DNA of 64,000 bases from Bacillota bacterium (GTDB taxonomy: Bacteria; Bacillota; Clostridia; Oscillospirales; Oscillospiraceae): the NCBI GenBank assembly GCA_030529825.1, contig JAUMWD010000003.1, forward strand, positions 119,641 to 183,640, read 5' to 3'. Shown here piece by piece: positions 13,282 to 45,354 of the stretch (position 1 is the first letter of the stretch; every line of letters begins with the position of its first letter). Both the position numbers and the translations under genes were made by a program. The notes under the pieces are model-generated. The model saw nothing but the letters and a program-made list of their open reading frames with translations. It made no database searches and was not told where the DNA came from.

Positions 13282-13322
13282 CCGGCACGGACCCATGCGT
13301 AACAAGCCGTGCCGGATTTTTT
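13282..13322 (+). terminator. Intrinsic terminator
   Basis: Perfect 9-bp stem CCGGCACGG / CCGTGCCGG followed by ATTTTTT. It separates the small-gene operon from the PolC-like gene. Confidence 0.85.
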
Positions 13323-13359
13323 GCCGTTTCAAAATCAGAGATTTCGGAGGGGAACCAAA

Positions 13360-15504
13360 ATGAAGGAACCGAACACAGCGCGCGTGGAACTGAAATTACA
13401 TACCACAATGTCGGAGAGCACTTCGGTAATTACCTCCGAAATTGCCGTGAAGGAGGCAGTGTCACACGGGATGAAGGCTATTGCCGTCACCGACCGCAAT
13501 TCGGTGCAAAGCTTTCATGAGCTTGCCCGTTGCCGAGAGAAATACGGTAAAAATCTGAAGATAATCTACGGCGCAGAGCTTTTAAACTCAACGGTGCTGG
13601 TAAAAAATCAGAAAGGCCTGAAGCCCTTGTATAAGCTCATTTCTGGGAAAACAATCACTCCTCAGGAGCGGGAACACCTGCTGTTTGGTGCTAATTGCTG
13701 CGGGCCTTTGCACAAGGCTGCCTGCAATGGCGCGGATATCGAAATGCTGCATCACTTGGCTGCGGACTATGACTACATCGAACTTGGAATAATAAATGAC
13801 CTTCCCCATGACCGTGATATGAATCTGCGGCTTTATGACCTGGGAAAGAAACTGGGCAAGCCGGTGGTAGCTGTGGGAAACTGTCACTATATTCATCCGC
13901 ATGAAAAGGTTTGCACATCTGTGCTTGATACCTTGAAGGGCAATTGTGCCAAAACGGAAGAACTGCACCTGCGCACAACGGAAGAAATGCTTGAGCAGTT
14001 TGCGTATTTGGGAGAAGAGGCAGCCTGCAAGGTCGTGGTCACAAACCCGAACTGGATTGCGGACGAAATCAAGCAGATTGACCCAAGAGAAATCGACGGA
14101 CCGGCCTTTGCTCTACCTGATGCAGCTGCTACGGTACGCCGAGTCTGTGAGGAAAAGCTGACGGCCCTTTACGGTGAGCAGCCTTTGATCAGAAAACGGC
14201 TTGAGCAGGAGCTTATGCGTCTGGGTAAGAACGCGTCCATGTTCTTGCTGTGCCATTTGCTTGCCACGCATCTGAGGGAAAAGAATACACTATACGGCTT
14301 GCGTGGAACCTTAGGCTCAACCTTGATTGCCTATCTGCTGGATATTTCCGACATCAATCCTTTGCCTGCCCACTATCGTTGTCCTGCCTGCAGGCACACG
14401 GAATTTTCAGAGGCAGATTCCGGATATGACTTGCCGAAAAAGAACTGCCCCTGTTGCAGAAAAACCATGGTCAGTGACGGTCACAATATACCCTTTGAAA
14501 CCTGCATGGGTATCGATGGGGAGTTTTGTGCGGATATAGAGCTTAATGTGGCCGACGATATGCGAGCTGAAGCAGTACAATTTTTAGCTGACCTGCTTGG
14601 ACGGAAGAGGCTGGCTGCCGGCGGAACTATTAACACCTACAGTCCCCAATTGGCGGATGCCAGCCTGCAGGATTACGCCGATATAAGCGGTGAGGAGATT
14701 ACAGAAGCGGACAAGGCGTGGATTGCCGATATGATTTGCAATGTAAAAAGCAGCGACGGCATACAGCCGGGTGGCGTTTTGCTGCTGCCGGAAGGAATGG
14801 AGTGGGAGGATGTAACTCCTGCGCGTTCAGTTGACGGTGACGGCTGCAAATTTGCAACGCACCTTGAGTATTACCATATCGCAGAGGCGATACCGAAGGT
14901 GGGAATTCTTTCTTCCGACTACTACGGGCGGCTGCAGAAAATGCTTGCACTTACAGGCGCTGCCCTTGAGGATGTTGACTATCATGACCCCAAGGTCTAT
15001 GCGATGATTCAAGATTCTGATACCGGCGGCATACCGGAGTTTGACGGGAAATATACACAGAGACTGCTTGGAAAGCTGAATACAATTTCCTTCAGTGACC
15101 TGATTAAGGTAATCAGCCTGGCTCACAGTACATTTTCATGGCATGAAAATACGGAAGACATGATGCAGGAGCATCCCTTCAGAGAATTGATAGGCAATCG
15201 GGATGATGTTTTTCTGACATTGCGCAAATACGGCGTGGACCGAGAGACAGCCCATACAGCTATGACGGCTGCCCGCAAGGGTAAATTGCACAGCAATTGG
15301 CGCAAAAACGAAGCCATGCTCGAAGGCTTACAGCAAGCCGGAGTGCCGGAGTGTTACTTGGAAGCTATGCAAAACGCCAGGTATCTGTCCTCAAAGGCCC
15401 ATGTTGTTCACTATGTGAAGCTGGCATACATGGCAGCTTGGTTCAAGGTTTACTATCCTGAGACTTTCTGCAAAGTAACCCTTGAGGCGATGGATACATC
15501 GTAA
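13360..15504 (+). CDS. PolC-like protein with altered catalytic residues
   Basis: A 714-residue paralogue of Gram-positive replicative polymerase PolC (normally about 1,430). Residues 8-185 are a PHP domain ('VELKLHTTMS', 'AVTDRNS', 'YGAELL', 'GNCHYIHPHE') without the exonuclease inserted in PolC. The polymerase part follows: 'GLRGTLGSTLIAYLL', a Zn site Cys341/344/363/366, 'GHNIPFETCMG', then the palm. PolC has DIDLN at the first two catalytic aspartates; here it is D392-I-E394. The third, in PolC 'THFDFHS', reads 'THLEYYHI' (Glu503). The C-terminal tens-binding and helix parts ('GIPEFDGKY', 'SSKAHVVHYV') remain, but the OB domain and PolC tail are absent. Start chosen after GGAGGGG. Confidence 0.8.
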   Translation: MKEPNTARVELKLHTTMSESTSVITSEIAVKEAVSHGMKAIAVTDRNSVQSFHELARCREKYGKNLKIIYGAELLNSTVLVKNQKGLKPLYKLISGKTITPQEREHLLFGANCCGPLHKAACNGADIEMLHHLAADYDYIELGIINDLPHDRDMNLRLYDLGKKLGKPVVAVGNCHYIHPHEKVCTSVLDTLKGNCAKTEELHLRTTEEMLEQFAYLGEEAACKVVVTNPNWIADEIKQIDPREIDGPAFALPDAAATVRRVCEEKLTALYGEQPLIRKRLEQELMRLGKNASMFLLCHLLATHLREKNTLYGLRGTLGSTLIAYLLDISDINPLPAHYRCPACRHTEFSEADSGYDLPKKNCPCCRKTMVSDGHNIPFETCMGIDGEFCADIELNVADDMRAEAVQFLADLLGRKRLAAGGTINTYSPQLADASLQDYADISGEEITEADKAWIADMICNVKSSDGIQPGGVLLLPEGMEWEDVTPARSVDGDGCKFATHLEYYHIAEAIPKVGILSSDYYGRLQKMLALTGAALEDVDYHDPKVYAMIQDSDTGGIPEFDGKYTQRLLGKLNTISFSDLIKVISLAHSTFSWHENTEDMMQEHPFRELIGNRDDVFLTLRKYGVDRETAHTAMTAARKGKLHSNWRKNEAMLEGLQQAGVPECYLEAMQNARYLSSKAHVVHYVKLAYMAAWFKVYYPETFCKVTLEAMDTS

Positions 15505-17958: not shown

Positions 17959-17992
17959 AATGCCATACTTGATACATAACGAGGGTTATGCT

Positions 17993-18865
17993 ATGCATTA
18001 CCAGACAAGCCGAGCCGAACGGGCAAGCTACAGCGCCTACTTTGTCGGGCAGAATATCTTCTATATGCTGGTTACCGGCTTTATTGCCCTGTTTCTGATG
18101 AACCGCGGAATCAGTGAGGCGGCAATCGCAGGTGTTCTGCTGGCACCGAAAATCTGGGATGCGGTAAACGATCCGATTTTCGGCATCATTGTGGACCGGT
18201 CCCATCTGAAGGGCGGAAAATTCCTGCCCTGGCTGAAGCTTAGCTGGGTGCTTATTCCGGTTTTCACGGTGTTTCTTTTTGCGATGCCGGAGCATATCGG
18301 CTACGGAGCAAAGGTGGCCTGGGCGGCTACGGGCTATGTGCTGTGGTCCATGAGCTATACAGTCTGCGATGCGCCCATTTTTGCACTGCCTACGGCCATG
18401 ACGAGCAATGTGGACGAGCGTACATCCATCCTGTCCATAGGCCGCCTGTTCGCCACCATAACCAGCGTTGTGATAACGCTGGTGGTAGAGGCGGTTTATC
18501 TGTCCACGGGTTGGCTTCTGCTGGCCGTTGTGCTGTCTGCCGCTGCAATGGGGTGCATGCTGCCCATCCTGCTGCTTGCAATTCCGGTGCGTGTGATTGC
18601 AGTGCTTGTAAGAGTAAAGCTTGGCAGCCCAGTGCTGTACAGCGCTACACGCATCGGCAAGGGAGAAAAGCCCTTTAAGATGTACAAGTTCCGCAGTATG
18701 ACAAATGAGCGCGACGAAAACGGTGAGCTGCTGCCCGATGCACAGCGCATGACAAAGTTCGGAAGTTTCCTGCGCGCTACATCAGCAGACGAATTGCCCG
18801 AGCTGTTCGCAATTCTCAAGGGCGATATGGCGTTCATCGGACCGCGCCCCATGCCAATAAGCTAG
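17993..18865 (+). CDS. In-frame chimera: GPH/MFS transporter N-half plus sugar transferase core
   Basis: A 290-residue frame made of two unrelated parts. Residues 1 to about 188 are the first half (about six helices) of a sodium:sugar symporter of the GPH/MelB type ('AYFVGQNIFYMLVTGFIALF', 'KIWDAVNDPIFGIIVDRS'). From about 189 ('LPILLLAIPVRVIAVLV') the text is a polyprenyl-phosphate sugar-1-phosphate transferase: 'GSPVLYSATRIGKGEKPFKM', 'YKFRSMTNERDENGELLPD', 'DELPELFAILKGDMAFIGPRP', then a stop. The transferase lacks its N-terminal basic segment and about 60-80 C-terminal residues. Neither half looks functional alone, but a strong promoter and GAGGG site remain. Confidence 0.75.
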   Translation: MHYQTSRAERASYSAYFVGQNIFYMLVTGFIALFLMNRGISEAAIAGVLLAPKIWDAVNDPIFGIIVDRSHLKGGKFLPWLKLSWVLIPVFTVFLFAMPEHIGYGAKVAWAATGYVLWSMSYTVCDAPIFALPTAMTSNVDERTSILSIGRLFATITSVVITLVVEAVYLSTGWLLLAVVLSAAAMGCMLPILLLAIPVRVIAVLVRVKLGSPVLYSATRIGKGEKPFKMYKFRSMTNERDENGELLPDAQRMTKFGSFLRATSADELPELFAILKGDMAFIGPRPMPIS

Positions 18866-19118: not shown

Positions 19119-20144
19119 ATGCCACTGCAGATAATACACAAAGATATTACGACGATGGACTGCGATGCCATAGTCAATCCCACCGACAGCTATTTCTCGG
19201 GCGGCGGCGGAACGGACCGTGCGATACACACCGGGGCAGGGCCCGGGCTTTCTGCGGAATGCGAGCGCCTTGAGCCACTCAGCTTCGGCGAGGTTGCGGT
19301 AACGGGCGGATACAAGCTGCCCTGCAGATACATAATCCACACCATGGGTCCCGTATGGAACGGCGGATACAATTGCGAGAGCGTGCTGCTGCGCAGCTGC
19401 TATATGAACGCGCTTTTCAAGGCAAGCGAGCTGGGAGCAAAATCCATTGCGTTTCCCCTTATCTCCTCAGGCACCTTCGGTTTCCCCAAGGATAAGGTGC
19501 TGCGGATTGCCATAGACGCAATTTCCGACTACATATCCAACACGGACAAGGAAATCTTTGTAACCGTATGTGTTCACGACAGAGAAGCTTTTGTCCTGAG
19601 CAAGGAAATTGCTCTGAAGGAATACATTGACGAGCACACAAAGCCCCGCTTCAGATACGAGGCGCATACCGTTGCGATGGCACCCATGCATTCGTGTAAC
19701 GGACCTGAGGAGATGGATGCCTGCTGTGCAAGCTATAGCGTCTCCAGTATACCTACCGCAAAAGCACCCTCACGCGAAGACCTTTCCAAGTGGATTAAGA
19801 AGCAGGATGACACCTTTGCGGTGATGTTGCTGAAGCTCATTGACGAAAAGGGCATGACCGATGTGCAGTGCTACAAGAAGGCCAATGTAAGCAAGGGCAC
19901 CTTCTGGAAGATAAACAACGACCCCAATTACAGGCCCAGCAAGGCCACCGTGCTCGCCTTTGCCATTGCTCTGGAGCTGAGCATTGAGGAAACAGAACAG
20001 CTTCTGAGAACCGTGGGTCTGGCACTGTCCCACAGCAATCTGTTCGACCTCATAGTTGAGTTCTACATCACAAACGGCAACTACGATATCTACGAAATCA
20101 ACGCCGCCCTTTTCAAGTACGACCAGGTCTGCATCGGCTGCTGA
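19119..20144 (+). CDS. Macro-domain protein with C-terminal HTH-like domain
   Basis: A 341-residue protein. Residues 1-175 are a macro domain, the ADP-ribose-binding and often deacylating fold: 'CDAIVNPTD', 'GGGGTDRAIHTGAGP', 'SFGEVAVTGGYKLPCRYIIHTMGPVW' in parts, and 'AFPLISSGTFGFPKDKV'. Residues about 215-341 ('DLSKWIKKQDDTFAVMLLK', 'YKKANVSKGTFWKINNDPNY', 'PSKATVLAFAIALELSIEE') resemble an XRE-type helix-turn-helix followed by a helical tail. This fusion is known from Clostridia genomes. It heads a run with a VWA protein and an ADP-ribosylglycohydrolase. GGAGGT precedes the ATG. Confidence 0.85.
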   Translation: MPLQIIHKDITTMDCDAIVNPTDSYFSGGGGTDRAIHTGAGPGLSAECERLEPLSFGEVAVTGGYKLPCRYIIHTMGPVWNGGYNCESVLLRSCYMNALFKASELGAKSIAFPLISSGTFGFPKDKVLRIAIDAISDYISNTDKEIFVTVCVHDREAFVLSKEIALKEYIDEHTKPRFRYEAHTVAMAPMHSCNGPEEMDACCASYSVSSIPTAKAPSREDLSKWIKKQDDTFAVMLLKLIDEKGMTDVQCYKKANVSKGTFWKINNDPNYRPSKATVLAFAIALELSIEETEQLLRTVGLALSHSNLFDLIVEFYITNGNYDIYEINAALFKYDQVCIGC

Positions 20145-20248
20145 TGCGGTATCTCACTGAGAGACCAAAAGTTAAAATCAATCTCCTATAATAAGGCTGT
20201 AAGTCAGGCAAGGCTCACAGCCTTATAGAATTTTTAGGAGGATTTATT

Positions 20249-20872
20249 ATGAAAAACAACATCACCGAACTGGTATTCATCCTTGACAAGAGTGGCTCCA
20301 TGGCAGGTCTCGAGTCCGACACCATCGGCGGCTTCAACGCCATGATTGAGAAGCAGAAGAAGCTGGACGGCAGGTGCTATGTTTCCACCGTGCTGTTTTC
20401 CAACACGGCGGAGGTCATTCACGACCGCGTGGACATCAGCGAGGTAAAGCCTTTGACCGAAAAGGAGTATTCCACCTACGGCTGCACCGCGCTTTTGGAC
20501 GCCCTGGGCGGTGCAATCCACCACATCGGCAATGTCCATAAGTACGCACGCCCCGAGGATGTTCCCGAGCATACCATCTTTGTCATCACAACCGACGGCA
20601 TGGAAAACGCAAGCTGTCACTATTCCGACCGCGAGGTCAAGCAGATGATTAAAAAGGAAGAGGAAAAGTACGGCTGGGAGTTTCTGTTCCTCGCGGCGAA
20701 CATCGACGCAGTTGAGACCGCGGAGCGCTACGGTATCCGCAGGGAGAGAGCCGCAAACTACAACGCCACCAAGGAGGGAACGGGTGCTATGTATGCCTGC
20801 ATGAGCATGGCGGTTGAAAGCATTCGCAGTGCTGATGATCTTCAGGACAACTGGGCAGATGAGCTTATTTAA
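20249..20872 (+). CDS. Von Willebrand factor A-domain protein
   Basis: A 207-residue, single-domain VWA protein without signal peptide, so cytoplasmic. The metal-ion-dependent adhesion site is complete: 'FILDKSGSM' (DxSxS), a Thr in 'YGCTALLDAL' and Asp in 'FVITTDGMENAS'. VWA domains hold protein partners through a metal. It follows the macro gene by 104 bases, including an inverted repeat AAGGCTGT/ACAGCCTT (20192-20224), and precedes the glycohydrolase by 14 bases. Confidence 0.9.
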   Translation: MKNNITELVFILDKSGSMAGLESDTIGGFNAMIEKQKKLDGRCYVSTVLFSNTAEVIHDRVDISEVKPLTEKEYSTYGCTALLDALGGAIHHIGNVHKYARPEDVPEHTIFVITTDGMENASCHYSDREVKQMIKKEEEKYGWEFLFLAANIDAVETAERYGIRRERAANYNATKEGTGAMYACMSMAVESIRSADDLQDNWADELI

Positions 20873-20886
20873 CAGGGAGCAAGAAA

Positions 20887-21921
20887 ATGACCGATTATAT
20901 TAAAGGCAGCATTTGGGGGCTCATTGTGGGCGATGCACTGGGAGTACCCGTGGAGTTTGAGGACAGGGAGGCATTAAAGCAGAATCCCGTTACGGGTATG
21001 AGGGGCTACGGCACCTATAATCTGCCCGAGGGCACATGGTCTGATGACAGCAGTATGACGCTTTGCACCATTGCCGCCCTCTGCAAGGGCAAAATCGACT
21101 GCGAGGACATAATGTCAAGATTCGCGGCATGGCGCTATAAGGGCAGATATACCCCCTACGGCAGGTGCTTTGACTGCGGCGGCACAACAAAGCGCGCCAT
21201 TGAAAAATACCGCCGCGGCATACTTGCCGAGGAGTGTGGCGGAATGGACGAACGGGATAACGGCAACGGCGCGCTTATGCGCATTCTGCCCGTGGTGCTG
21301 TACCAGTTTGAAAAGTATCAGCATTTTAAATGCTGCGACCGCCATGCCATCATTAAGCCAATCTGCAGAGTGGCAGCTCTTACCCACGTACATCCTATAA
21401 ATCAGATAGGCTGTGCCTTATATGCGCAGCTGCTGGGCGAGCTCATTAACTACAAGCATTACAATGAACCCACAAAGCCCTGCGACAACTTGTTTGATGT
21501 GGTGGCTTTGGCAATGAAAGGCGATTTCCGTTGGCGTGCTGACTGGAATTTTGGCCGCCGCAGTTATGGTACGAGTAAACATCAGCGCCCCTATAGCCGT
21601 CTTAAAGATATCCGAGCCTTTGCGGCCTTGCCCGAGGAGGAGATTAAAAGCGGCGGCTATGTTGTCAACACCCTTGAGGCGGCAATATGGTGCTTCCTGA
21701 ATACCGAAAGCTACGCCGATTGTGTGCTGAAGGCGGTAAACCTGGGCAACGATACCGATACCACCGCTGCTGTTGCAGGTGCAATAGCCGGTGCGTACTA
21801 CGGCAGTTCAGCCATTCCCGCCGAATGGCTGAACTGCCTCGCAAGAAAAGAATGGCTTGCGGGAATGATAGACAAATTCGAAAAAATCTGCGTCGGCATG
21901 CGATGCGGAGATGCTGAATAA
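20887..21921 (+). CDS. ADP-ribosylglycohydrolase (DraG family)
   Basis: A 344-residue DraG-family enzyme, which removes ADP-ribose from proteins or small molecules with two magnesium ions. The sites are present: 'GLIVGDALGVPVEF', 'GTWSDDSSMTLCTI' (first metal ligands), 'DNGNGALMRILP', and C-terminal 'VNLGNDTDTTAAVAGAIAGAYYG' (second metal ligands). A short insertion around residues 190-240 ('WRADWNFGRRSYGTSKHQRPY') distinguishes it. It is 14 bases after the VWA gene, so both are one transcript. Confidence 0.9.
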   Translation: MTDYIKGSIWGLIVGDALGVPVEFEDREALKQNPVTGMRGYGTYNLPEGTWSDDSSMTLCTIAALCKGKIDCEDIMSRFAAWRYKGRYTPYGRCFDCGGTTKRAIEKYRRGILAEECGGMDERDNGNGALMRILPVVLYQFEKYQHFKCCDRHAIIKPICRVAALTHVHPINQIGCALYAQLLGELINYKHYNEPTKPCDNLFDVVALAMKGDFRWRADWNFGRRSYGTSKHQRPYSRLKDIRAFAALPEEEIKSGGYVVNTLEAAIWCFLNTESYADCVLKAVNLGNDTDTTAAVAGAIAGAYYGSSAIPAEWLNCLARKEWLAGMIDKFEKICVGMRCGDAE

Positions 21922-31744: not shown

Positions 31745-33016
31745 TTATTCTTCTATAAGCTTGCTTGTGTTGCAGCAGGTGTATTCAGGCGGAAAATCAA
31801 ATTGATAGAGCTCGTATGCGATTTCGCGCTTTTTCAAAACCTTGCGAAGAGAGTCCATAAAGCAATCATTTCGGGTGCACTGATGGATAGTAAGACTAAC
31901 CTTTGAGTTGATTGTAACCCCGGAAACGGCGATAAGTCCTTCGTGTATTGCGTTGAAATCCATGTGTATATCCCGGACCTTTTCCGACAGCTCTTCGGAA
32001 AATCCCGGCTTTGTGATATGCGTGTAAATAATTTCTGCCGCCGAATTCTCTGTTGTCTCGCTCTCCATAAGCTTCCGGAAGTCCTCGGGATCGGCTTTCA
32101 TCTGTTCCAAAAGGCCGGCATCCACATTTAAAAACTGTGTCAGATTGGACTTATCCGTCCAAAGATCGAGCTGGCTGCGAAATATGGTTTCCACCTTTGC
32201 ATCCGGCATGTTTTTCATGCGTTCAGTCACATAGCAGAGAGAAAATCCCTGAACAAAATTTCGGTCAGTCACAGTCGGGAAGAAGCGGCGAAGATTCACG
32301 GGAACTCTGACATAAATGTTGCCGGTTTCAATGTTGAATGCATCCGCCACTGTCCTTGCCAGGATGCAGGCAACAACGGAAAAAATGCTGGTTTCGCTCT
32401 CCTTCGCAAAGCGCCGCACTTCCATCAAGGGAATTTCCAGTCTCCAGGGGCGCTGGTCCTTTAGCTCGAACCAATAGGAATCAATATTCACGGGCTGATT
32501 CGATTTTGGACTGCAAAGCGCTTCACAAGCAGGGTCAGCATAGCGAAGGAAGCCGTTTTCCAAGGTTTGCTCCGGACTGCCCGCGGGAAAATCCGTTACG
32601 GTATCCGAAAACGCCGCGCCTGCGAGCCGAAAATATGTATGGAGGACGGTCTTGCAAAAGCTGAACATACCGGAGCCATCTGTGAGCACATGAGTTGAGT
32701 ATAAAAGCATTCGGTTGTCCTGAATCACTATAATCCAGGGATAATGATTGTTTTCGTCAGTGCCGTATATTATGGGCGCATCGTCCGCGGTGAATATTAC
32801 GGGCGGCTCCGGATTTTCCTCAAAGCAATACTGTCCGTTTTCAAAAATTATACGGGTCCCGAACAGAGGATGATAAGCGATGGCCTCTTTGACGGCGATT
32901 AGCATTATACCTGCATCAATGGCTTCATACAGGTCAACCGTTAAATGCGCGCCCGCAAGATTTATCAGTGCATATATACTTTCCTTGCCGTTCATTTCGT
33001 ATCTTTTTAAATCCAT
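31745..33016 (-). CDS. Condensation-fold acyltransferase (PapA/AAT-like)
   Basis: A 423-residue protein of the condensation/alcohol-acyltransferase superfamily. The catalytic motif HxxxDG is H109-V-L-T-D113-G114, in the expected place, and a second half contains 'YVRVPVNLRRFFP' and 'SVVACILARTVADAF'. Such enzymes join an acyl thioester to an alcohol or amine. It follows the MATE exporter by 53 bases on the same strand and has a good AAGGAG site. A protein of equal size and fold lies at 39815. Confidence 0.78.
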   Translation of the reverse strand: MDLKRYEMNGKESIYALINLAGAHLTVDLYEAIDAGIMLIAVKEAIAYHPLFGTRIIFENGQYCFEENPEPPVIFTADDAPIIYGTDENNHYPWIIVIQDNRMLLYSTHVLTDGSGMFSFCKTVLHTYFRLAGAAFSDTVTDFPAGSPEQTLENGFLRYADPACEALCSPKSNQPVNIDSYWFELKDQRPWRLEIPLMEVRRFAKESETSIFSVVACILARTVADAFNIETGNIYVRVPVNLRRFFPTVTDRNFVQGFSLCYVTERMKNMPDAKVETIFRSQLDLWTDKSNLTQFLNVDAGLLEQMKADPEDFRKLMESETTENSAAEIIYTHITKPGFSEELSEKVRDIHMDFNAIHEGLIAVSGVTINSKVSLTIHQCTRNDCFMDSLRKVLKKREIAYELYQFDFPPEYTCCNTSKLIEE

Positions 33017-33069: not shown

Positions 33070-34437
33070 TTAAGCTTCAGCCTGTAATCGCAGAAGCCGA
33101 TTTGCCCAATGGGACTTATAGTACAGAAGCAGTGCAACGGCCCCAAGTCCCCAGCTGACAGTGAATGCAAGAGAAACGGAAATCGGTGTGATGGAGAAGA
33201 AGGCGGAAAGGACAATCAGGAAGGCAAGGCGGAATCCGACATAGAATATCAGCTTGATTCCTGTCGGACCCTTTGAATCGCCCATTCCTGTCATGGCACG
33301 GGTCAGATTTTCGGTGATACAATAGTAGAGCATTGACATGACGACCCAACGGATAAATATTACACCAAATCGAATAGCTTCTGCATCTTCCGTAAATATG
33401 CCGATGAGCGATTTCGCGAAAATAAACATACCCACGGAAATCACGGCAGAAACGGCGAAGCTCAGAACGTTTGCCTTGTGTATTCCCTCTTTGACTCTGC
33501 TATATTGCTTTGCCCCGAAATTCTGGCTCGCAAAAGCGGCGGAAGCGGAGGAGAAGGAATCTACGGGCATCATGGAAACGCCCAGCAGCTTATTGAAGCA
33601 GCTCCAGCCGGCCATGCAGGCAGAGCCCAGCATGTTTATATATGTCTGTGCCAAAAGATTTGTAAATGCGGTAATCACCGATTGGATACTTGAGGGCAAG
33701 CCGATTGACAGGATGGTTTTCAGTTGGGAAGAATTGATATGTATGCCGCGCCAATCCAGCCGATAGACCTCCTGTGTTTTGGTCAGGACTATAACGACCT
33801 GAATCGCAGCTATAAACTGGGAAATTGTCGTTGCCCATGCGACACCGGCCACTCCTGCGTCGAAAACAACGACAAAAACAATATCGAGTACAATGTTTAT
33901 GGCACTGGATACTGTCAGGAAAATCAACGGCATAGTAGTATTTCCTACTGCCCGGAGAATTTCGCCGCCGATATTGTAAATGATCATGCCGGAAATGCCG
34001 ATGAAATAGATATGCAGATATGTTGACGCAAAGGAAAAAACATCGTCGGGGGTTTTCAGCAGCCTGAGTATGGGATTTGAAAGAGGATATCCGATAACCG
34101 TCAGAGCCGCGCAAATAATCAGAGAAAACGCAATGATCGTCTGAATTGCATCATGAAGAGCGTTCTTTTCCTTCGAGCCGAAGATTTGCCCCACCAGAGT
34201 GCCGGCTCCGACAGAAAAGCCCAGGAAGAGGTAAAGCGTAATATTGGTTATCATACCGGTTGCGCCAACAGCCGCCATAGCTTCAGTACCGATAAAGCGA
34301 CCGACAACGATAGTGTCCACGATGTTATAAAGCATCTGCATTATACGGCCAAGGAAGACCGGTACGGAATATGCTATCAGATGCCTGTAAATATTTCCGC
34401 TTGTCATGTTTCGGACTTTTCCGGATTTTCGGAACAT
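33070..34437 (-). CDS. MATE-family efflux transporter
   Basis: A 455-residue membrane protein with twelve helices in two repeats of six. Signatures are 'SVPVFLGRIMQMLYNIVDTI', 'VGRFIGTEAMAAVGAT', 'GFSVGAGTLVGQIFGSKEK' and, in the second half, 'AFASQNFGAKQYSRVKEGI'. MATE proteins export drugs or metabolites using sodium or protons. It heads a two-gene operon with the condensation-fold enzyme, suggesting export of an acylated product. Confidence 0.9.
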   Translation of the reverse strand: MFRKSGKVRNMTSGNIYRHLIAYSVPVFLGRIMQMLYNIVDTIVVGRFIGTEAMAAVGATGMITNITLYLFLGFSVGAGTLVGQIFGSKEKNALHDAIQTIIAFSLIICAALTVIGYPLSNPILRLLKTPDDVFSFASTYLHIYFIGISGMIIYNIGGEILRAVGNTTMPLIFLTVSSAINIVLDIVFVVVFDAGVAGVAWATTISQFIAAIQVVIVLTKTQEVYRLDWRGIHINSSQLKTILSIGLPSSIQSVITAFTNLLAQTYINMLGSACMAGWSCFNKLLGVSMMPVDSFSSASAAFASQNFGAKQYSRVKEGIHKANVLSFAVSAVISVGMFIFAKSLIGIFTEDAEAIRFGVIFIRWVVMSMLYYCITENLTRAMTGMGDSKGPTGIKLIFYVGFRLAFLIVLSAFFSITPISVSLAFTVSWGLGAVALLLYYKSHWANRLLRLQAEA

Positions 34438-37903: not shown

Positions 37904-39784
37904 ATGAAAGTATCGGTTAACAACGATGCCGGAAAGCTTATAATCAAGGTTGAGGGTAGACTTGACACATCTACATACTCACAGCTGCAGGACATTATTG
38001 ACGGTCTTGATTTTGCATCCGCTGATGTGCTGTTTGATTTTAAGGAGCTCCGGTACATTTCCTCTGCGGGCCTGAGGGTTCTTCTTGCAGCGAGAAAAAA
38101 GGTTAAGGACGGCAATATGAAGATTGTCAATGCGAACGAGGACGTTTTTGATATATTCAAAATGACCGGCTTTGACACGATAATGGACATTGAGCTTGCT
38201 CAGGCAAGCGCCTCACCGGAGGAGTATATGTCCATGTCCTTCAAGGAGGTTATCGCAAAGCTGGCCTCCGATTTCCCGGACAAGGTTTTTCTCAAGCACA
38301 GAGGAATAACATATACTTGGCAGGAGATTGACCGGTGCTCCGAGATAATTGCCTCCGACCTCAGAAAGCTCGGTGTTAGGAAGGGCTCACATGTGGGTCT
38401 CTGCACCACTAACTGCGCAAACTGGGCATTCGCTTTCTTTGCAATTCAGAAGCTCGGTGCAGTTGCCTGCCTGCTCAACTTCAACTACACCGCCGAGGAG
38501 CTTAAGCTTGTTTCCAAGGTGGGTGATATAACTCACCTTTGCTATGGTGATATTAGCCTTGCACGCGATGGCTCGGGTTTCCCGGACAATGTTCTGAACA
38601 GACCGGACAGTATGCTCACCCACGCATACGATATTCGCACGAACATAGATTTCAGACAGCGCCTCTCGGAATACGACAGTATTGAGGACAAAAAAGGTCC
38701 CGCGGTATCCTCTGATGATGTCTGTGTAATGATATACACCTCCGGCTCTACGGGAACCCCCAAGGGAGTGCTCCTCTCGGCATACAACATTTTGAACTCA
38801 TCTGAAATCCGTGCAAAGACAGTAGGCATAAACTCCTCGGATAAGCTCTGCCTTATTCTCCCTCTGTTCCACACCTTCGGCATTTCTGCGGGATTTTTCT
38901 GCAATGCGCTTCACGGCGGCTCAATAGTCATTCCCGATAACGGTCATGTTCACACTGTTCTTGAAACAATTGAAAAGGAAAAGTGTACGCTTTTCCATTC
39001 TGTTCCCACAATGATTCTGGCACTCATGGGGAATAAAGAATTCACTCCCGAGAAGGTGTCGTCTTTACGCTGTATCAATGTCGGCGGCGCGTCCTTCTCC
39101 AAGGCACAGTTTATTAATGCAAGCAAGGCGTTCCCGAATGTTCACTTCATCGTAAGCTACGGTTTGTCCGAGGCAACCCCGTCAACTCTGACCGAGTACA
39201 ACGACGGTATTGACCGCATCTGCGACTCTGTAGGTAAACCCATCGACTGTGTTGAGCTTAAAGTAGTAAATCCCGAAAGCGGCGAGGAATGCCCCACCGG
39301 CGCTGCGGGCGAAATTATGATTCGCGGTCTTAATCTCATGTGCTCATACTACAAGCTGCCGCTGGACAAGCAGGCGATTGATGAATACGGCTGGCTGCAC
39401 AGCGGCGATATGGGCTGCCTTGACAGCGACGGTTACCTGCACTTCCTCGGAAGATACAAGGAGCTCATCATCCGCGGCGGCGAAAACATTATGCCCAACG
39501 AGGTAGGAGCAGTCATCTCACAGCACGAGGATGTACAGGATGTAAAGGTCGTGGGCGTTCCTGATTATTTTTACGGAGAAGCGGTATGTGCCTGCATTTC
39601 GATGAAGGAGGGCCGCAGCTTCAACGAAAATGAGATGAGAGCCTTCCTTGACGGGAAGCTTTCAAAGCACAAGATCCCCGCATATTTCCTCGTCTATGAT
39701 TCTCTGCCCAAGCTCGCTAACGGCAAGCAGGATGCGGTCAGAATGAAGCGCGAGGCAGCCGAAAAATTTGCAAAGCAGGATTAA
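37904..39784 (+). CDS. STAS domain-acyl-CoA ligase fusion
   Basis: A 626-residue fusion. Residues 1-100 are a STAS domain of the anti-sigma-antagonist type ('GRLDTSTYSQLQDIID', 'FDFKELRYISSAGLRVLL'), with Ser53/Ser54 at the place phosphorylated in SpoIIAA. Residues 108-626 are an AMP-forming acyl-CoA ligase: 'MIYTSGSTGTPKG' (P-loop, 277-289), 'YGLSEATPS', 'GWLHSGDMGCLDSDG' and 'GRYKELIIRGGENI', ending with the catalytic Lys in 'LANGKQDAVRM'. The AAGGAG site fixes the start. Next downstream is a condensation-fold acyltransferase. Phospho-control of ligase activity through STAS is inference. Confidence 0.88.
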   Translation: MKVSVNNDAGKLIIKVEGRLDTSTYSQLQDIIDGLDFASADVLFDFKELRYISSAGLRVLLAARKKVKDGNMKIVNANEDVFDIFKMTGFDTIMDIELAQASASPEEYMSMSFKEVIAKLASDFPDKVFLKHRGITYTWQEIDRCSEIIASDLRKLGVRKGSHVGLCTTNCANWAFAFFAIQKLGAVACLLNFNYTAEELKLVSKVGDITHLCYGDISLARDGSGFPDNVLNRPDSMLTHAYDIRTNIDFRQRLSEYDSIEDKKGPAVSSDDVCVMIYTSGSTGTPKGVLLSAYNILNSSEIRAKTVGINSSDKLCLILPLFHTFGISAGFFCNALHGGSIVIPDNGHVHTVLETIEKEKCTLFHSVPTMILALMGNKEFTPEKVSSLRCINVGGASFSKAQFINASKAFPNVHFIVSYGLSEATPSTLTEYNDGIDRICDSVGKPIDCVELKVVNPESGEECPTGAAGEIMIRGLNLMCSYYKLPLDKQAIDEYGWLHSGDMGCLDSDGYLHFLGRYKELIIRGGENIMPNEVGAVISQHEDVQDVKVVGVPDYFYGEAVCACISMKEGRSFNENEMRAFLDGKLSKHKIPAYFLVYDSLPKLANGKQDAVRMKREAAEKFAKQD

Positions 39785-39814
39785 TATCAAAAACTGCTTT
39801 TCGGGAGACAATAC

Positions 39815-41101
39815 ATGGATTTTAGTAATTATGAAGCAAAAGTAACCTCTGAGATTCCTTATTTCTTTATGGGAAAGGGATCCCGCTTTTCAACGGTTAA
39901 ATTTACCGTTGTTATGAAAGATGAGGTCGACGGGGAAATCCTGCGCCACGCTGCCCACAAGGCTGCTGCGCGCTTTCCCTATCTTTCGGTTAAGCTCGAC
40001 CTTCGACAAGACGGCTTGTACCTTGTACATAATCCCCTGCCGTTGGCTGTCATCTGCACCGAGGCACCGGTCAAGCTGTGTGCCGAGGAGACAAATTATC
40101 ATTTGCACGCCGTAACCTACACCAAGCACACCATTCAGATTCCCGCCCTGCACGCTCTGTATGACGGCCTCGGCGGAACACGCTTCCGTCAGACGCTTCT
40201 GTACTACTACTGTCAGGAGAAATATGATGCAGACCTCAAGGCGCCCGACGGTGCATACCTGCTCGGCAATGAGATCGACGAAGGCGAGTACGAAAACCCG
40301 TTTGCAAGCGAAAAGCTGAAGGGCATTTCAGCACCTGCATCGGCTGCTGATGGCGAGGGAATGGCATACACGGTATTTTCGGATAATGAGCTGACGGAAA
40401 CTGACCACAGATGCCTTCTGCTGAAGATAAACGAGTCGGATTTCCAGTGCTTCTGCAAGCAAAACGGTACTTCTGTTTTTGCGATGTCGATAATTCTGTA
40501 TGCAAAGGCAATAAACAGCTTTAGGACTGATAAAAGTAAGCCGATTGTCATCGGATATCCGACTAATGCCCGAAATGTATTGGGTGTTGAAAAAACCGTG
40601 CGTCCTGCGGTAGTGCCCTGCGGCATTGCACTCACCGACAGTCAGCTCAATATGACGCTCCCGGAGCTTGGCGAATATGTGAAGGCATCTGTCAAAAAGA
40701 GCATCAGCGAGGATGTGCTGATGCGGTCTGCTGCCAAAACAAAACAGGACTATGACGGGATAGCAGATATTCCGGTGAAGGAGGTTTATGAGAAGGTCGG
40801 CAGACATATGAGCTCGGCTGACTCCCCTCTGATAAGCTACATGGGCAGACTGCAGTGGGGAGATATGCTCCGCTACATAAAATACGGCTTCTCCACAGGC
40901 AACTTCCCCAGCTCAATAATCTGCCAGGAAAACTCCATGAACGGATATCTGACGATGTCTTTTAATCAGACAATATTGGAGGATAAGTATGTCAGAGCGA
41001 TATGCGCCGAGCTTGATAAAAACGGCATAGGCTACGAGCTCGAAGCACTTGAAGCTGACCCCATTGCATACGCAGACCAGATATTTGACTTCGAAAACTG
41101 A
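39815..41101 (+). CDS. Condensation-fold acyltransferase, second copy
   Basis: A 428-residue protein of the same superfamily as 31745-33016. HxxxDG is H113-A-L-Y-D117-G118. Further parts are 'YFFMGKGSRFSTVKF' at the start, 'IVIGYPTNARNVLGVEKTVRP' and 'ISYMGRLQWGDM'. It begins 30 bases after the STAS-ligase and shares its terminator, so the ligase may supply acyl-CoA or acyl-AMP and this enzyme transfer it. The acceptor is unknown. Confidence 0.78.
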   Translation: MDFSNYEAKVTSEIPYFFMGKGSRFSTVKFTVVMKDEVDGEILRHAAHKAAARFPYLSVKLDLRQDGLYLVHNPLPLAVICTEAPVKLCAEETNYHLHAVTYTKHTIQIPALHALYDGLGGTRFRQTLLYYYCQEKYDADLKAPDGAYLLGNEIDEGEYENPFASEKLKGISAPASAADGEGMAYTVFSDNELTETDHRCLLLKINESDFQCFCKQNGTSVFAMSIILYAKAINSFRTDKSKPIVIGYPTNARNVLGVEKTVRPAVVPCGIALTDSQLNMTLPELGEYVKASVKKSISEDVLMRSAAKTKQDYDGIADIPVKEVYEKVGRHMSSADSPLISYMGRLQWGDMLRYIKYGFSTGNFPSSIICQENSMNGYLTMSFNQTILEDKYVRAICAELDKNGIGYELEALEADPIAYADQIFDFEN

Positions 41102-41110
41102 TGAAAAAAA

Positions 41111-41146
41111 GACTCCGCTGCCCTATTGGGCAGCGGAGTCTTTTTT
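41111..41146 (+). terminator. Intrinsic terminator
   Basis: Perfect 13-bp stem GACTCCGCTGCCC / GGGCAGCGGAGTC then T6. Confidence 0.9.
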
Positions 41147-41170
41147 GAGATTTGGAGCTTGAATTGTATC

Positions 41171-41344
41171 CTATCCGCGTTTGCTTTTCCTCGTCTTAAT
41201 TATGACTGCGGTGACTAAAGCTGCAGCTATAGCTGCGACAATAATCCAGGGCAGAGCGCATTCAAATGAATGCATGCCTTCAGCCGCGTCCTTTGCGTTT
41301 TCAACGGTTTTACTGCCGGAGTCGGCGTCTTCGGCACAGGTAAA
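41171..41344 (-). pseudogene. C-terminal membrane-anchor fragment of a surface protein
   Basis: 57 codons without an upstream start. The text runs 'DSGSKTVENAKDAAEGM', a hydrophobic helix 'LPWIIVAAIAAALVTAVII' and a basic tail 'KTRKSKRG', the layout of a C-terminal anchor. An in-frame TGA at 41345 cuts it from anything upstream. It is a remnant of a secreted, anchored protein. Confidence 0.5.
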
Positions 41345-41449
41345 TCAACTCTGCCGCGTCTGATGAACGCTTTGGAACACACGCAAGCATACACGCGCCT
41401 TTGTAAACAAGATGATTGTTCTCCCGTGCAAGCCTGACGATATCGTTTA

Positions 41450-41983
41450 TTAATACCGCCTGAGCCTGTCAACATAAATATCGCAGATCATATTAGCAAG
41501 CTCTGCGGGGTCATCCCTCATACCGCTTATTACCCACTCGGACATGATGCCGAAAAGAGTGTTGGCATATGCGATGAAAAGATAACGCGAATGCCTGTCC
41601 TTTTCGCTCACGAGGGAAAGCCCGAGCTCGCTGCGTATGATTGCATCGCGGATATACCAACCGAGATTATTAGACAGCAGGCAGGCGGCAAGATCGTTGT
41701 AGCGGCGGAAGTACTCAAAGCCGAGCAGAACATTTTCGTATCTTATGAACGAGGCGTGCTTTGCGTTGGCATATACTTCCTTGTGGTAGTTGTCGAAAAT
41801 GCTGTTAATATACTTTTCGAGGATATCTTCCTTTGAACTGAAGTTTCGGTAATAGGTCATTCGGGAAACACCCGCCTTCTGCGCAATTTCGGCAACAGAA
41901 ATTGAAGAAAAGGGTTTTTCTTTCAAAAGCTCTATGAGAGCCTTTGCTATGCATTCGGTAAAGAAAGTGCTTGAATTATTCAT
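41450..41983 (-). CDS. TetR-family regulator
   Basis: A 177-residue regulator. Residues 1-50 are the TetR helix-turn-helix: 'IAKALIELLKEKPFSSISV', 'EIAQKAGVSRMTYYRNF', 'SKEDILEKYI'. The C-terminal helical domain ('YIRDAIIRSELGL', 'FIAYANTLFGIMSEWVISGM') should bind an acyl or related ligand. It is divergent from the CoA-transferase gene across a 214-base region holding a TGTAAC array, its likely operator. Confidence 0.88.
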   Translation of the reverse strand: MNNSSTFFTECIAKALIELLKEKPFSSISVAEIAQKAGVSRMTYYRNFSSKEDILEKYINSIFDNYHKEVYANAKHASFIRYENVLLGFEYFRRYNDLAACLLSNNLGWYIRDAIIRSELGLSLVSEKDRHSRYLFIAYANTLFGIMSEWVISGMRDDPAELANMICDIYVDRLRRY

Positions 41984-42006
41984 AGGCCACCATCCTCTGA
42001 ACAGTT

Positions 42007-42129
42007 TGTAACACATAACAAATAAAAGTGTAACATGAAATCCAAGTTGTGTAACTCTTGCGGTTTCCTGTGTAACTATCTATGCACAATTGCTTGTAAA
42101 CAAATTGACAATGCGATACAATTTGTAAC
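42007..42129. promoter_or_regulatory. Phased TGTAAC direct-repeat array
   Basis: TGTAAC occurs at 42007, 42029, 42050, 42071 and 42124. The first four are 21-22 bases apart, two helix turns, and the last is 53 bases on, five turns. All face the same way. TTGACA (42105-42110) lies between the fourth and fifth copies and could be the -35 box of the CoA-transferase promoter, but no well-spaced -10 was found. Confidence 0.5.
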
Positions 42130-42197
42130 ATCAATATATACAATTTTCGGCAAAATGGCAAGAAGTTTTTTATCATTTATACTAAGGAGGAAGCAAA

Positions 42198-43823
42198 ATG
42201 GCTAAAAAATCTCTGGACGCAAGACTTAAGCAGGCGTGTGATACACGCATTGCGGAAGAAGGCAAAATCAACATCTACGAAGAATTTGAAAATGTGGTAA
42301 ACGAAATCGGACTCAGCTCCGAGGATGCAGGCGGCAAAATTACCTTTGAGGGCGCAGACCCTATCGTAGACAGCACCATCGCTCTGGGCACCGGCTCATC
42401 TATCTGCCTCATGGCAAAATCTCTTGCAGCCACTAAAATCTGGCGTATGCGCGGCGGCGAGGGTCAGGATATGTCAATTGACATTTCCAAGGGCATAAGC
42501 AGACTCAGCGCACTGTATAAGATGCAGGAAATGCTCAACGGCTACAATCCCGATGTACCCGATGTTAACCTGGGCGGTCTTATGCTGCTGATGCGCACTG
42601 CCGACGGCAGCTTCGTATGCCCCGATAACAATATGCCCAAGCTGCGCGACAGAATGCAGGACATGATTGGCTGCAACAACAATATACCCAGCGTTGTAAA
42701 GAAGTTGCTGTTCAAAAACGGCACAAAGCTCGAGGAAAAATGCGCAAAAGAGGGTATCATCATGGGCAGATTGCGCACACTGCAGGAGTTTATGCAGGAG
42801 CCCGTTTACACCGATTATCTGAGCAAGCTGCCTCTGGTTGAAATTGAGAAGATAGGCGAGAGCGAGCCCGAACCTCTGTCAATGAATCCGAAAACACCTC
42901 TCGAGGGTGTCCGCGCTCTGGGTATGGGCCATATCATTGCCGGTGCCGGCCTCGGCCGCGCACTTGCCTGCCACGGCGCAGATGTTCTGAATATCTGGAA
43001 GCCCGATGAATTCGAATACGATTCCACCTACATCTCTGCAGATGTCGGTATGCGCTCCTGCAGAATTCAGTACAAGGAGGAGAAGGGCCAGAAGCAGGTC
43101 AAGGAGCTGCTGAAGGATGCCGACATCTTCTTTGCAAACCGTCGTCCCAAGCTCATGGAGAAGGTTGGTCTTACTGCAAAGGAATGCGCAGAGATAAGGC
43201 CCGGCATAATCTACTGCAATACCTCCTTCGCAGGCGATGCAGGTCCCTGGAGAGATCGTGTGGGCTATGACCAGGTTGCAGGCTGTGTAACCGGTATGGC
43301 AATGTTCGAGGGCACTCCCGAGGAGCCCCGTCTGCCTGTAATTAATGTTGTAAACGACTTCCTCGTCAGCTGGCTTGCCGCCGCAGGCGTTATGGAAGCA
43401 CTTGCCCGCAGAGCAAAGGAAGGCGGCAGCTACCGCGTTCAGGTTTCTCTGTGCCGTGTTTCTCTGTGGCTTATGAGCATGGGTATCTTTGATAAGGACT
43501 TTGTAAAGGCAAACTTCGGCAAGGGCATCCATGAGGAGAAGGATCCTGATCTGTTCCACGCAAAGACTTCCCTGGGCTACTATCAGGGCTACACCGACCA
43601 AGTGCATATGTCTGTGCTGAAGGAAGAGTATAACCCCGTTCTCGTACCTCGCGGCTCAAGTGCTCCGGTATGGCTTGTTGACGGCAAGGAGCCGGATTGG
43701 ATTCCTCTTGACGCAATGGAAAACATTAAGATTACACCCGTAGAGGCATATCAAAATCAGATATACGATACCTACCGAAAGCTGCCTAAGATTCTGTTCA
43801 AGGCACTGAAGCTGTTTAGCTGA
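42198..43823 (+). CDS. Family III (CaiB/BaiF) CoA-transferase
   Basis: A 541-residue protein of the formyl-CoA/carnitine CoA-transferase family. An extra N-terminal region (about 1-225) precedes the usual start 'NPKTPLEGVRALGMGHIIAGAGLGR'. Further signatures are 'LNIWKPDEFEYD', 'ADIFFANRRPKLMEKVGLT', 'YCNTSFAGDAGPWRDRVGYD' with the catalytic acidic residue, and 'GGSYRVQVSLCRVSLWL'. It moves CoA between carboxylic acids. Total length exceeds the usual 400, matching the two-domain forms. AAGGAGG precedes the ATG. Confidence 0.85.
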   Translation: MAKKSLDARLKQACDTRIAEEGKINIYEEFENVVNEIGLSSEDAGGKITFEGADPIVDSTIALGTGSSICLMAKSLAATKIWRMRGGEGQDMSIDISKGISRLSALYKMQEMLNGYNPDVPDVNLGGLMLLMRTADGSFVCPDNNMPKLRDRMQDMIGCNNNIPSVVKKLLFKNGTKLEEKCAKEGIIMGRLRTLQEFMQEPVYTDYLSKLPLVEIEKIGESEPEPLSMNPKTPLEGVRALGMGHIIAGAGLGRALACHGADVLNIWKPDEFEYDSTYISADVGMRSCRIQYKEEKGQKQVKELLKDADIFFANRRPKLMEKVGLTAKECAEIRPGIIYCNTSFAGDAGPWRDRVGYDQVAGCVTGMAMFEGTPEEPRLPVINVVNDFLVSWLAAAGVMEALARRAKEGGSYRVQVSLCRVSLWLMSMGIFDKDFVKANFGKGIHEEKDPDLFHAKTSLGYYQGYTDQVHMSVLKEEYNPVLVPRGSSAPVWLVDGKEPDWIPLDAMENIKITPVEAYQNQIYDTYRKLPKILFKALKLFS

Positions 43824-44055: not shown

Positions 44056-45354
44056 ATGACTAATACTCATCTTAAAAATGCTCGTTTTATCTGCACCTTG
44101 CTTTTAGCCCTTTGCATACTTCTCGGCTGCCTGACAGGCTGCTCATCCGATACATCATCCGAGACTCCGTCTGATACACCGTCCGGGTCCCGGGAGAGCA
44201 TCCGACCGGAGCTCACACAGCTTGCCGATAATCTTTACGAAACCACCTTCACCACGGATTTTAACTGGGACAAATCCGGCACATCGGAACTGCCGGGTGC
44301 TGCTTGCTCCGGTGTGCAGAACGGGCAATACCGCGGCAGAAACTATGACTGGATTTTCGCTGACACCGACATTTGCGTTGTCCACGCAGCCGCAACTGAA
44401 AACCGCCCTCACGCAAGTGTGGGCGTTTCGGATATGAGCTTCATAACGGATGAGGACGGCACTTACGATTATGAGCTGATTCCTTTTTTCACGGTTGACG
44501 GCATTAACGACGCAGGCATCTGTATTCAGGTGAATGTCATGCCCTACGGTGAAAACGGCGAGCTGACTCACACGAAGGCGGCAGAGGATGACCTTGATGG
44601 CGGCAGCGTCGTCAGATACATCCTCGATAATGCCGATTCCGTTGAAAGCGCTCTTGCGCTTTTGAAGGATAAGGACATTCACTCCGAAATGGGAGAAACT
44701 GAGGAACTCCACTGGATGCTCTCCGGCCCCGCAAGCGGCACTGACAGCAGAATCAAAACCGTAGTCATTGAGGTGTTCCCCGACGGACTCCATGTCACAG
44801 AGAGCTTCGTGGACGATAAGCCCATTATGACCAATTTTAATGTGGCTAACTTTGACGGCTCTGCGGAGTCCGTGGGCATGGGCCTCGGCTACGAGAGATG
44901 GCAGCTCCTTGACAAATACTACAATCAGGCGGACTCCGTCATGGGTACCTTTGACCTCATGGAAAAGGTGTACTACTCCAAGAACTATGACCTTTACGGT
45001 GAGCTTTTCTGGTATTCCGAATGTGCAGGAGTTGACCTCACGAAGTACTATGATGAGGAAACTCTGAAGGAGCTAATAGGTGAGGAAACCTATAACTTCT
45101 ATATGGAAAAGTACGGCGGTGTTTATTACAGCATGGCACTTCGTGACGGTGAACCGGCTGTTAACGGCGACATTTCCGAGACCGGCATCCTCTCCGCCGT
45201 TGCGGAGCGCGAAATGGCGGCATACTGCGCACAAAATTCGGAGGACGGCAGCCTTTGGATTACTGTCCACACCTCGGTTTATGACCTTGAAAACCTGACA
45301 CTTGATATTCAGGTCAGAGAATCCCAGGACCATCTGCACTTTACAATTGACTAA
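44056..45354 (+). CDS. Ntn-hydrolase lipoprotein (choloylglycine hydrolase / penicillin V acylase-like)
   Basis: A 432-residue protein. Residues 1-28 are a signal peptide ending in lipobox L-T-G-C29, followed by a Ser/Thr/Pro linker. From 'PGAACSGVQNGQYRGRNYDWI' the sequence follows the linear amide C-N hydrolase family, where a Cys (C84 here) is the nucleophile and R95-N-Y-D lies in the substrate pocket. Later parts 'DGINDAGICIQVN' and 'MTNFNV' also fit. In the family this Cys becomes the new N-terminus by self-cleavage, which here would cut the protein off its lipid anchor. Substrate (bile acid, penicillin V, N-acyl amino acid) unknown. Confidence 0.78.
   Translation: MTNTHLKNARFICTLLLALCILLGCLTGCSSDTSSETPSDTPSGSRESIRPELTQLADNLYETTFTTDFNWDKSGTSELPGAACSGVQNGQYRGRNYDWIFADTDICVVHAAATENRPHASVGVSDMSFITDEDGTYDYELIPFFTVDGINDAGICIQVNVMPYGENGELTHTKAAEDDLDGGSVVRYILDNADSVESALALLKDKDIHSEMGETEELHWMLSGPASGTDSRIKTVVIEVFPDGLHVTESFVDDKPIMTNFNVANFDGSAESVGMGLGYERWQLLDKYYNQADSVMGTFDLMEKVYYSKNYDLYGELFWYSECAGVDLTKYYDEETLKELIGEETYNFYMEKYGGVYYSMALRDGEPAVNGDISETGILSAVAEREMAAYCAQNSEDGSLWITVHTSVYDLENLTLDIQVRESQDHLHFTID

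Follow-up and report, generated by a model that had tools for sequence, protein, structure and literature searches.

What does an acyl-coenzyme A (acyl-CoA) ligase gain from a domain of the kind that controls anti-sigma factors? The question is raised by a gene in the 64,000-nt stretch of DNA analysed here (G000:C28:119641-183640, hereafter the window), part of a 1.93-Mb draft genome of a gut bacterium. The gene (37904-39784, forward strand, start codon ATG at 37904) encodes a 626-aa protein, P0001, in which an anti-sigma-antagonist-type STAS domain precedes a complete AMP-forming ligase. Partner switching is textbook gene regulation through sequestered sigma factors. We propose, with a probability of roughly 0.5, that the operon at 37904-41101 is a signal-gated acylation pair, a partner-switching module whose STAS output would fall on acyl activation and not on a sigma factor.

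The STAS profile PF01740 matched residues 8-99 of P0001 with 48.1 bits against a curated cut-off of 22.6. The STAS part alone recovered solved STAS structures (4hyl, 2e-8; RsbV 6m36, 1e-6; SpoIIAA 1th8, 4e-5), and its AlphaFold model (predicted local distance difference test, pLDDT, about 80-88) has the STAS order of secondary structure, with Ser54 opening helix 54-66. The rest of the protein is an ANL acyl-CoA ligase with a complete core, a C-terminal domain and the catalytic motifs, including Lys608. None of the best 25 NCBIfam matches listed reached the cut-off of a substrate-specific family (359.6 bits for the top match vs 476). An earlier note on this DNA, made from its letters alone, had described a STAS domain joined to a complete AMP-forming ligase, and the PF01740, AMP-binding and AMP-binding_C matches bear this out. 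Profile score, matches to solved structures, predicted secondary structure and conserved fusions rule out a chance annotation of the STAS domain. An assembly chimera or a chance open reading frame (ORF) is excluded as well, because 15 full-length fusions occur in many genomes of several phyla.

The STAS-ligase fusion is rare yet real. The first full-length relatives, 40-53% identical to P0001, came from a Bacilli metagenome-assembled genome (MAG), a Coriobacteriaceae MAG, Fretibacterium, Parasporobacterium and a genome of the window's own order; additional ones were found in more genomes of the Fretibacterium and Parasporobacterium families and in one more of the own order, giving the 15 fusions across Clostridia, Bacilli, Coriobacteriia and Synergistia. 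Their frequency was 2/391 genomes in the class of the window genome, 2/394 in its order, 5/83 in the Fretibacterium family (one copy interrupted by an insertion sequence, IS), 5/387 in the Parasporobacterium family and 1/259 in the order of the Coriobacteriaceae, where the single genome has two copies; among other members of the window's genus it was 0/5. At L005 (5948-9089) the STAS-ligase gene is split, and the IS element inside it contains two transposase ORFs. In a tree of the ligases all 15 complete fusions and one STAS-less protein (L004, nested beside L003) form a single clade with support 100/100; we therefore count one fusion event and one STAS loss, with STAS kept in 15 of the 16 clade members. 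Spread by plasmids was considered and rejected: the top plasmid matches are ligases without STAS.

Ser54 of the STAS domain aligns with Ser58 of SpoIIAA (chain 1tid has Ala at this place, taken as an S58A variant) and is kept in 14 of the 15 fusions, L202 having Leu. Ligase residues T279, S280, K287, Y419, E423, D502, R517 and K608, which include the main catalytic ones, are invariant (K608 in 15/15). Mean pairwise identity among the fusions is 35% for the STAS part vs 50% for the ligase, so we make no claim of special constraint on STAS.

The second gene, P0002, starts 30 nt after P0001, and the two form a two-gene operon closed by a terminator hairpin (Table 1). The GC content of the operon (0.48-0.49) is similar to that of the surroundings and thus gives no sign of recent transfer. 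P0002 had no family or sequence match in Pfam (PF00668 included), NCBIfam or the sequences of the PDB. A Foldseek search with its AlphaFold model (mean pLDDT 66) gave PapA5 (1q9j) as the nearest structure (E-value 2e-14, template modelling score 0.57-0.63), with TRI101, plant HCT and condensation domains of nonribosomal peptide synthetases (NRPS) as further matches. The predicted fold is two-lobed, as in the condensation superfamily, and the HxxxD(G) motif is present as HALYDG, with H113 and D117 invariant among the relatives (7/7). The HxxxDG transferase that had been noticed beside the ligase is thereby confirmed as a protein of predicted condensation/PapA5-type fold. P0002 shares fold and motif with the PapA5, BAHD and NRPS condensation acyltransferases; unlike them, it has no detectable sequence family, stands alone and is partnered by a STAS-ligase.

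Acyltransferases are the usual neighbours of the fusion. Condensation-fold proteins lie beside STAS-ligase genes in the window, L002 (two), L007, L045 (two), L195 (three) and L199; membrane proteins of the acyltransferase-3/HGSNAT type do so in L057, L200 and L201, and a GNAT-type protein in L001. Acyltransferases of three unrelated folds in this place suggest that the ligase supplies their acyl donor, and a gated acylation step would be the best reading of these loci.

Genes of partner switching recur at the loci of relatives. In L199 the order is condensation-fold gene, HAMP-SpoIIE, STAS-ligase, the last two overlapping at their ends. In L200 a SpoIIE gene precedes the STAS-ligase by ~5 nt, followed later by an acyltransferase, SpoIIE and HATPase_c_2. 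L201 has a STAS gene adjoining the STAS-ligase and a HATPase-SpoIIE pair ~5 kb away; a HATPase-like ORF recognized by eye (L201:7475-8107) had no Pfam match and was left out of the counts. A short sigma-like ORF was seen at L201:6937-7413, by eye only. L002/L129 shows STAS-APH, two condensation-fold genes, an isoamylase-like gene, STAS-ligase, two ABC genes, SpoIIE (3.9 kb downstream of the STAS-ligase in L002) and a second STAS-ligase, while L195 has three condensation-fold genes, a MATE-HATPase_c_2 fusion 20 nt upstream of the STAS-ligase, and an RND-like pump. With an assumed, not measured, chance of 1-2% per locus of an adjacent switch gene, three of about eleven loci (few in number and related to each other) give a binomial tail of about 0.0002-0.001.

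No HATPase_c_2 or SpoIIE match of the window genome is on the contig of the window itself; every one sits on another contig. This genome has spoIIAA, spoIIAB and, as read in the DNA letters, the start of sigF. Contig C10 encodes a HAMP-SpoIIE-HATPase protein, and contig C11 has genes for STAS-APH (of the cognate type), STAS and HATPase-SDF. The C10 protein is 44% identical over its full length to a SpoIIE-HATPase of genome G804 whose gene directly precedes STAS-APH, and the STAS-APH proteins of the two genomes are 61% identical; the N-box, G1 and G2 motifs of these HATPases appear intact. A profile search found no sigma factor gene in the window operon. The co-occurrence of RsbW-type kinase genes that the earlier note had looked to is thus seen as SpoIIE/HATPase linkage in L199, L200, L201 and L002 and is not seen in the window, the candidate kinase and phosphatase being on other contigs; its idea of a phospho-switch draws support from comparative genomics (this linkage and the conserved serine) and none from linkage in the window.

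In the mechanism that we favour, an RsbW-type HATPase kinase would phosphorylate the STAS domain at Ser54, and a SpoIIE-type phosphatase reading a membrane signal would take the phosphate off. The state of the STAS domain may then switch or relocate acyl activation (acid + ATP + CoA -> acyl-CoA), so that the partner switch would act on how active the enzyme is, or on where it lies, and not on a sigma factor. The acyltransferase, P0002 in the window, would pass the acyl group to a sugar, alcohol or amine, and in relatives the product would probably exit through the MATE, ABC or RND exporters encoded at their loci. For the window the best candidate controller is the C10 protein, which would act in trans.

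STAS domains on enzymes extend beyond the ligase. A STAS-APH kinase fusion was present in 8/8 fusion genomes checked, against 24 matches in 391 genomes of the class (about 6%), including a few that lack STAS. Among STAS-APH loci of the class sample, 6/26 have a fused C-terminal HATPase and five more adjoin SpoIIE/HATPase genes. STAS-APH-HATPase triple fusions occur in L136, L154, L155, L159, L160, L162 and L164; each of these proteins may unite a switch substrate with a kinase-like enzyme and an RsbW-type kinase. HATPase domains are also found on transporters: HATPase_c_2 is fused to MATE in L136 and L195 above the Pfam cut-off and in L134 below it, and a degenerate HATPase-like domain, seen by alignment only, is fused to SDF symporters in the own C11 and in G801. 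Several transporter-fused HATPases lack the kinase motifs. In a row on one strand of C11 (L043, 5393-11102) lie HD_4, STAS-APH, STAS, the degenerate HATPase-SDF symporter, FMN dehydrogenase and DUF362 genes. In G801 (L147) HATPase-SDF adjoins SpoIIE-HATPase. The row in L134 (G805:C252) reads STAS, ATP-grasp, MATE, GH3-family, SpoIIE, HATPase, STAS-APH, MATE-HATPase, STAS-APH. In L148 (G803:C120, 873-8359) SpoIIE is followed by STAS-Condensation, by a protein made up of the C-terminal part of an adenylation domain, a peptidyl carrier and a condensation domain, and by MATE, apparently a STAS-NRPS under a partner-switch phosphatase whose adenylation core seems to be missing.

Several observations weigh against the proposed gating by partner switching. 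Kinase and phosphatase genes are absent from the part of the window examined and from the DNA read at L003, L007, L196 and L202, and L202 has Leu in place of the switch serine. Conservation of Ser54 is weak evidence because a serine at this position is common in STAS domains generally; co-occurrence is inflated by the common habitat, gut or rumen, of the genomes with the fusion. The AlphaFold model of full-length P0001 (predicted template modelling score 0.54) does not define the STAS-ligase interface. The leucine of L202 would suit a docking module, in which STAS holds the ligase on an exporter with a HATPase domain (of MATE-HATPase or HATPase-SDF type) or on another STAS partner in a synthesis-export complex and phosphorylation at most tunes the tether. 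The MATE-fused HATPases (above all that next to the STAS-ligase in L195), the degenerate HATPase-SDF proteins of G801 and, beside STAS genes, of C11, and the loss of kinase motifs all speak for such a tether. We consider it unlikely, however: the MATE exporter of the window has no HATPase, nearly all fusions retain the serine, and L199-L201 have linked genes for catalytic kinase and phosphatase.

Rather improbable, in our judgement, is an ordinary ligase of catabolism or detoxification on which STAS is an evolutionary ornament. The STAS-less close relatives L204 and L206 do belong to ligase/acyl-CoA dehydrogenase/electron transfer flavoprotein (Etf)/CaiB-type operons, L205 to a similar catabolic-looking operon with no CaiB in the part read, and a CaiB gene lies near the operon in the window. 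But that gene sits behind the terminator, paired with TetR; the fusions have acyltransferases beside them, no acyl-CoA dehydrogenase or Etf gene was noticed next to any of them, and STAS was lost only once in the clade. Still less credible is that STAS binds an acyl carrier, acyl-CoA or nucleotide as an allosteric or carrier-docking domain with no partner switching. The STAS domain of E. coli YchM does bind acyl carrier protein (ACP), and in P0001 the domain is fused to an acyl-activating enzyme; yet the STAS-ligase loci showed no neighbouring ACP gene, the P0001 domain is nearest to anti-sigma-antagonist STAS and has the switch serine, and SpoIIE/HATPase linkage would be left aside.

Gating by partner switching has its closest counterparts in the RsbU/RsbV/RsbW and SpoIIE/SpoIIAA/SpoIIAB systems of Bacillus, which share a STAS domain with switch serine, a HATPase_c_2 kinase and a PP2C/SpoIIE phosphatase. 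In contrast to those systems, STAS is here part of an acyl-CoA ligase, the window operon lacks a sigma factor, and HATPases may be transporter-fused. In Vibrio fischeri, SypA/SypE includes a non-canonical, phospho-controlled STAS protein that acts below transcription on biofilm/exopolysaccharide (PMC10120452); SypA is a single-domain protein, whereas in P0001 the enzyme itself bears the STAS domain. In Anabaena, the glycosyltransferase All4160 carries STAS at its N-terminus (PMC8256260), and heterocyst envelope polysaccharide synthesis depends on its gene among others (PMC4390870). It resembles P0001 in the N-terminal place of STAS on an enzyme, there one of cell-surface biosynthesis, but the enzymes differ (glycosyltransferase and ligase). 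A published STAS-acyl-ligase fusion was not found in the literature searched, whose scope leaves out most subscription journals.

More tentatively, and with some doubt, we suggest a modular signalling class that spans several phyla of bacteria from gut and rumen. In this class STAS would sit on enzymes of biosynthesis (acyl-CoA ligase, APH-fold kinase, NRPS condensation module), and exporters or symporters (MATE, SDF) would bear RsbW-type HATPase; SpoIIE input would assemble or release an enzyme-exporter complex, with metabolism and not transcription as the direct output. If the proposal is true, the biosynthetic enzyme itself would contain the switch domain and the exporter the kinase domain, and partner-switch logic would reach as far as the acylation and export of small molecules in gut bacteria, which it would control directly and post-translationally. 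A STAS-enzyme fusion next to SpoIIE could then serve as a handle for unannotated biosynthetic clusters, with L199-L201, L195 and the window as a test set.

Table 1. Features of the STAS-ligase operon and of nearby genes in the window
Feature	Position	Strand	Basis or remark
Ribosome-binding site AAGGAG of P0001	37891..37896	+	Read in sequence, 7 nt 5' of ATG 37904
STAS domain, anti-sigma-antagonist type, P0001 residues 1-100	37904..38203	+	Profiles PF01740 1.1e-12, PF13466 6.5e-8
Codon of Ser54 of P0001, position of SpoIIAA Ser58 (phosphoacceptor)	38063..38065	+	Alignment to SpoIIAA
AMP-binding core of acyl-CoA ligase, P0001 residues 121-483	38264..39352	+	PF00501 6.9e-77
AMP-binding_C domain with catalytic Lys608, P0001 residues 533-608	39500..39727	+	PF13193 4.4e-12
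P0002, condensation-fold (CoA-dependent acyltransferase superfamily), HALYDG at 40151-40168	39815..41101	+	AlphaFold model; homologues adjoin STAS-ligase in L002, L007, L045
Intrinsic terminator, perfect 19-bp stem, 4-nt loop	41105..41146	+	3' end of two-gene operon
TetR	41450-42016	-	Profile match
CaiB/BaiF, CoA_transf_3	42198-43823	+	Profile match
Second, distant condensation-fold protein	31745..33016	-	Possible associated unit; PapA_C 0.004
MATE exporter, 455 aa, without HATPase domain	33070..34437	-	Possible associated unit; MatE 1.1e-52

The genes that the earlier note had grouped in one cluster are all present, but TetR and the CoA-transferase do not belong to the system: they lie beyond the terminator as a separate divergent pair with repeated TGTAAC elements in between, and CaiB was absent from all other STAS-ligase loci inspected. 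The CoA_transf_3 match of the CaiB/BaiF protein begins only at residue 235, leaving ~230 N-terminal aa without a family. Upstream of the operon, the protein at 31745-33016 is weakly homologous both to P0002 and to L007's condensation-fold protein (E-values about 1e-7 to 5e-8).

A role in anti-phage defence was rejected, PADLOC giving no match. Three genes in a row at 19119-21921, which encode a macro-domain protein, a 207-aa protein of no family and an ADP-ribosylglycohydrolase, had no PADLOC match. The protein at 44056-45354 is C45/choloylglycine-hydrolase-like, with weak family scores and an N-terminus of lipoprotein type. At 17960-18865 a single ORF joins a piece of a GPH/MFS transporter (28-199) to a piece of a sugar transferase (201-299), likely a deletion fusion or an assembly join. 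The PolC-like protein at 13309-15504 has 731 aa, about half the usual length, with a PHP match at its N-terminus.

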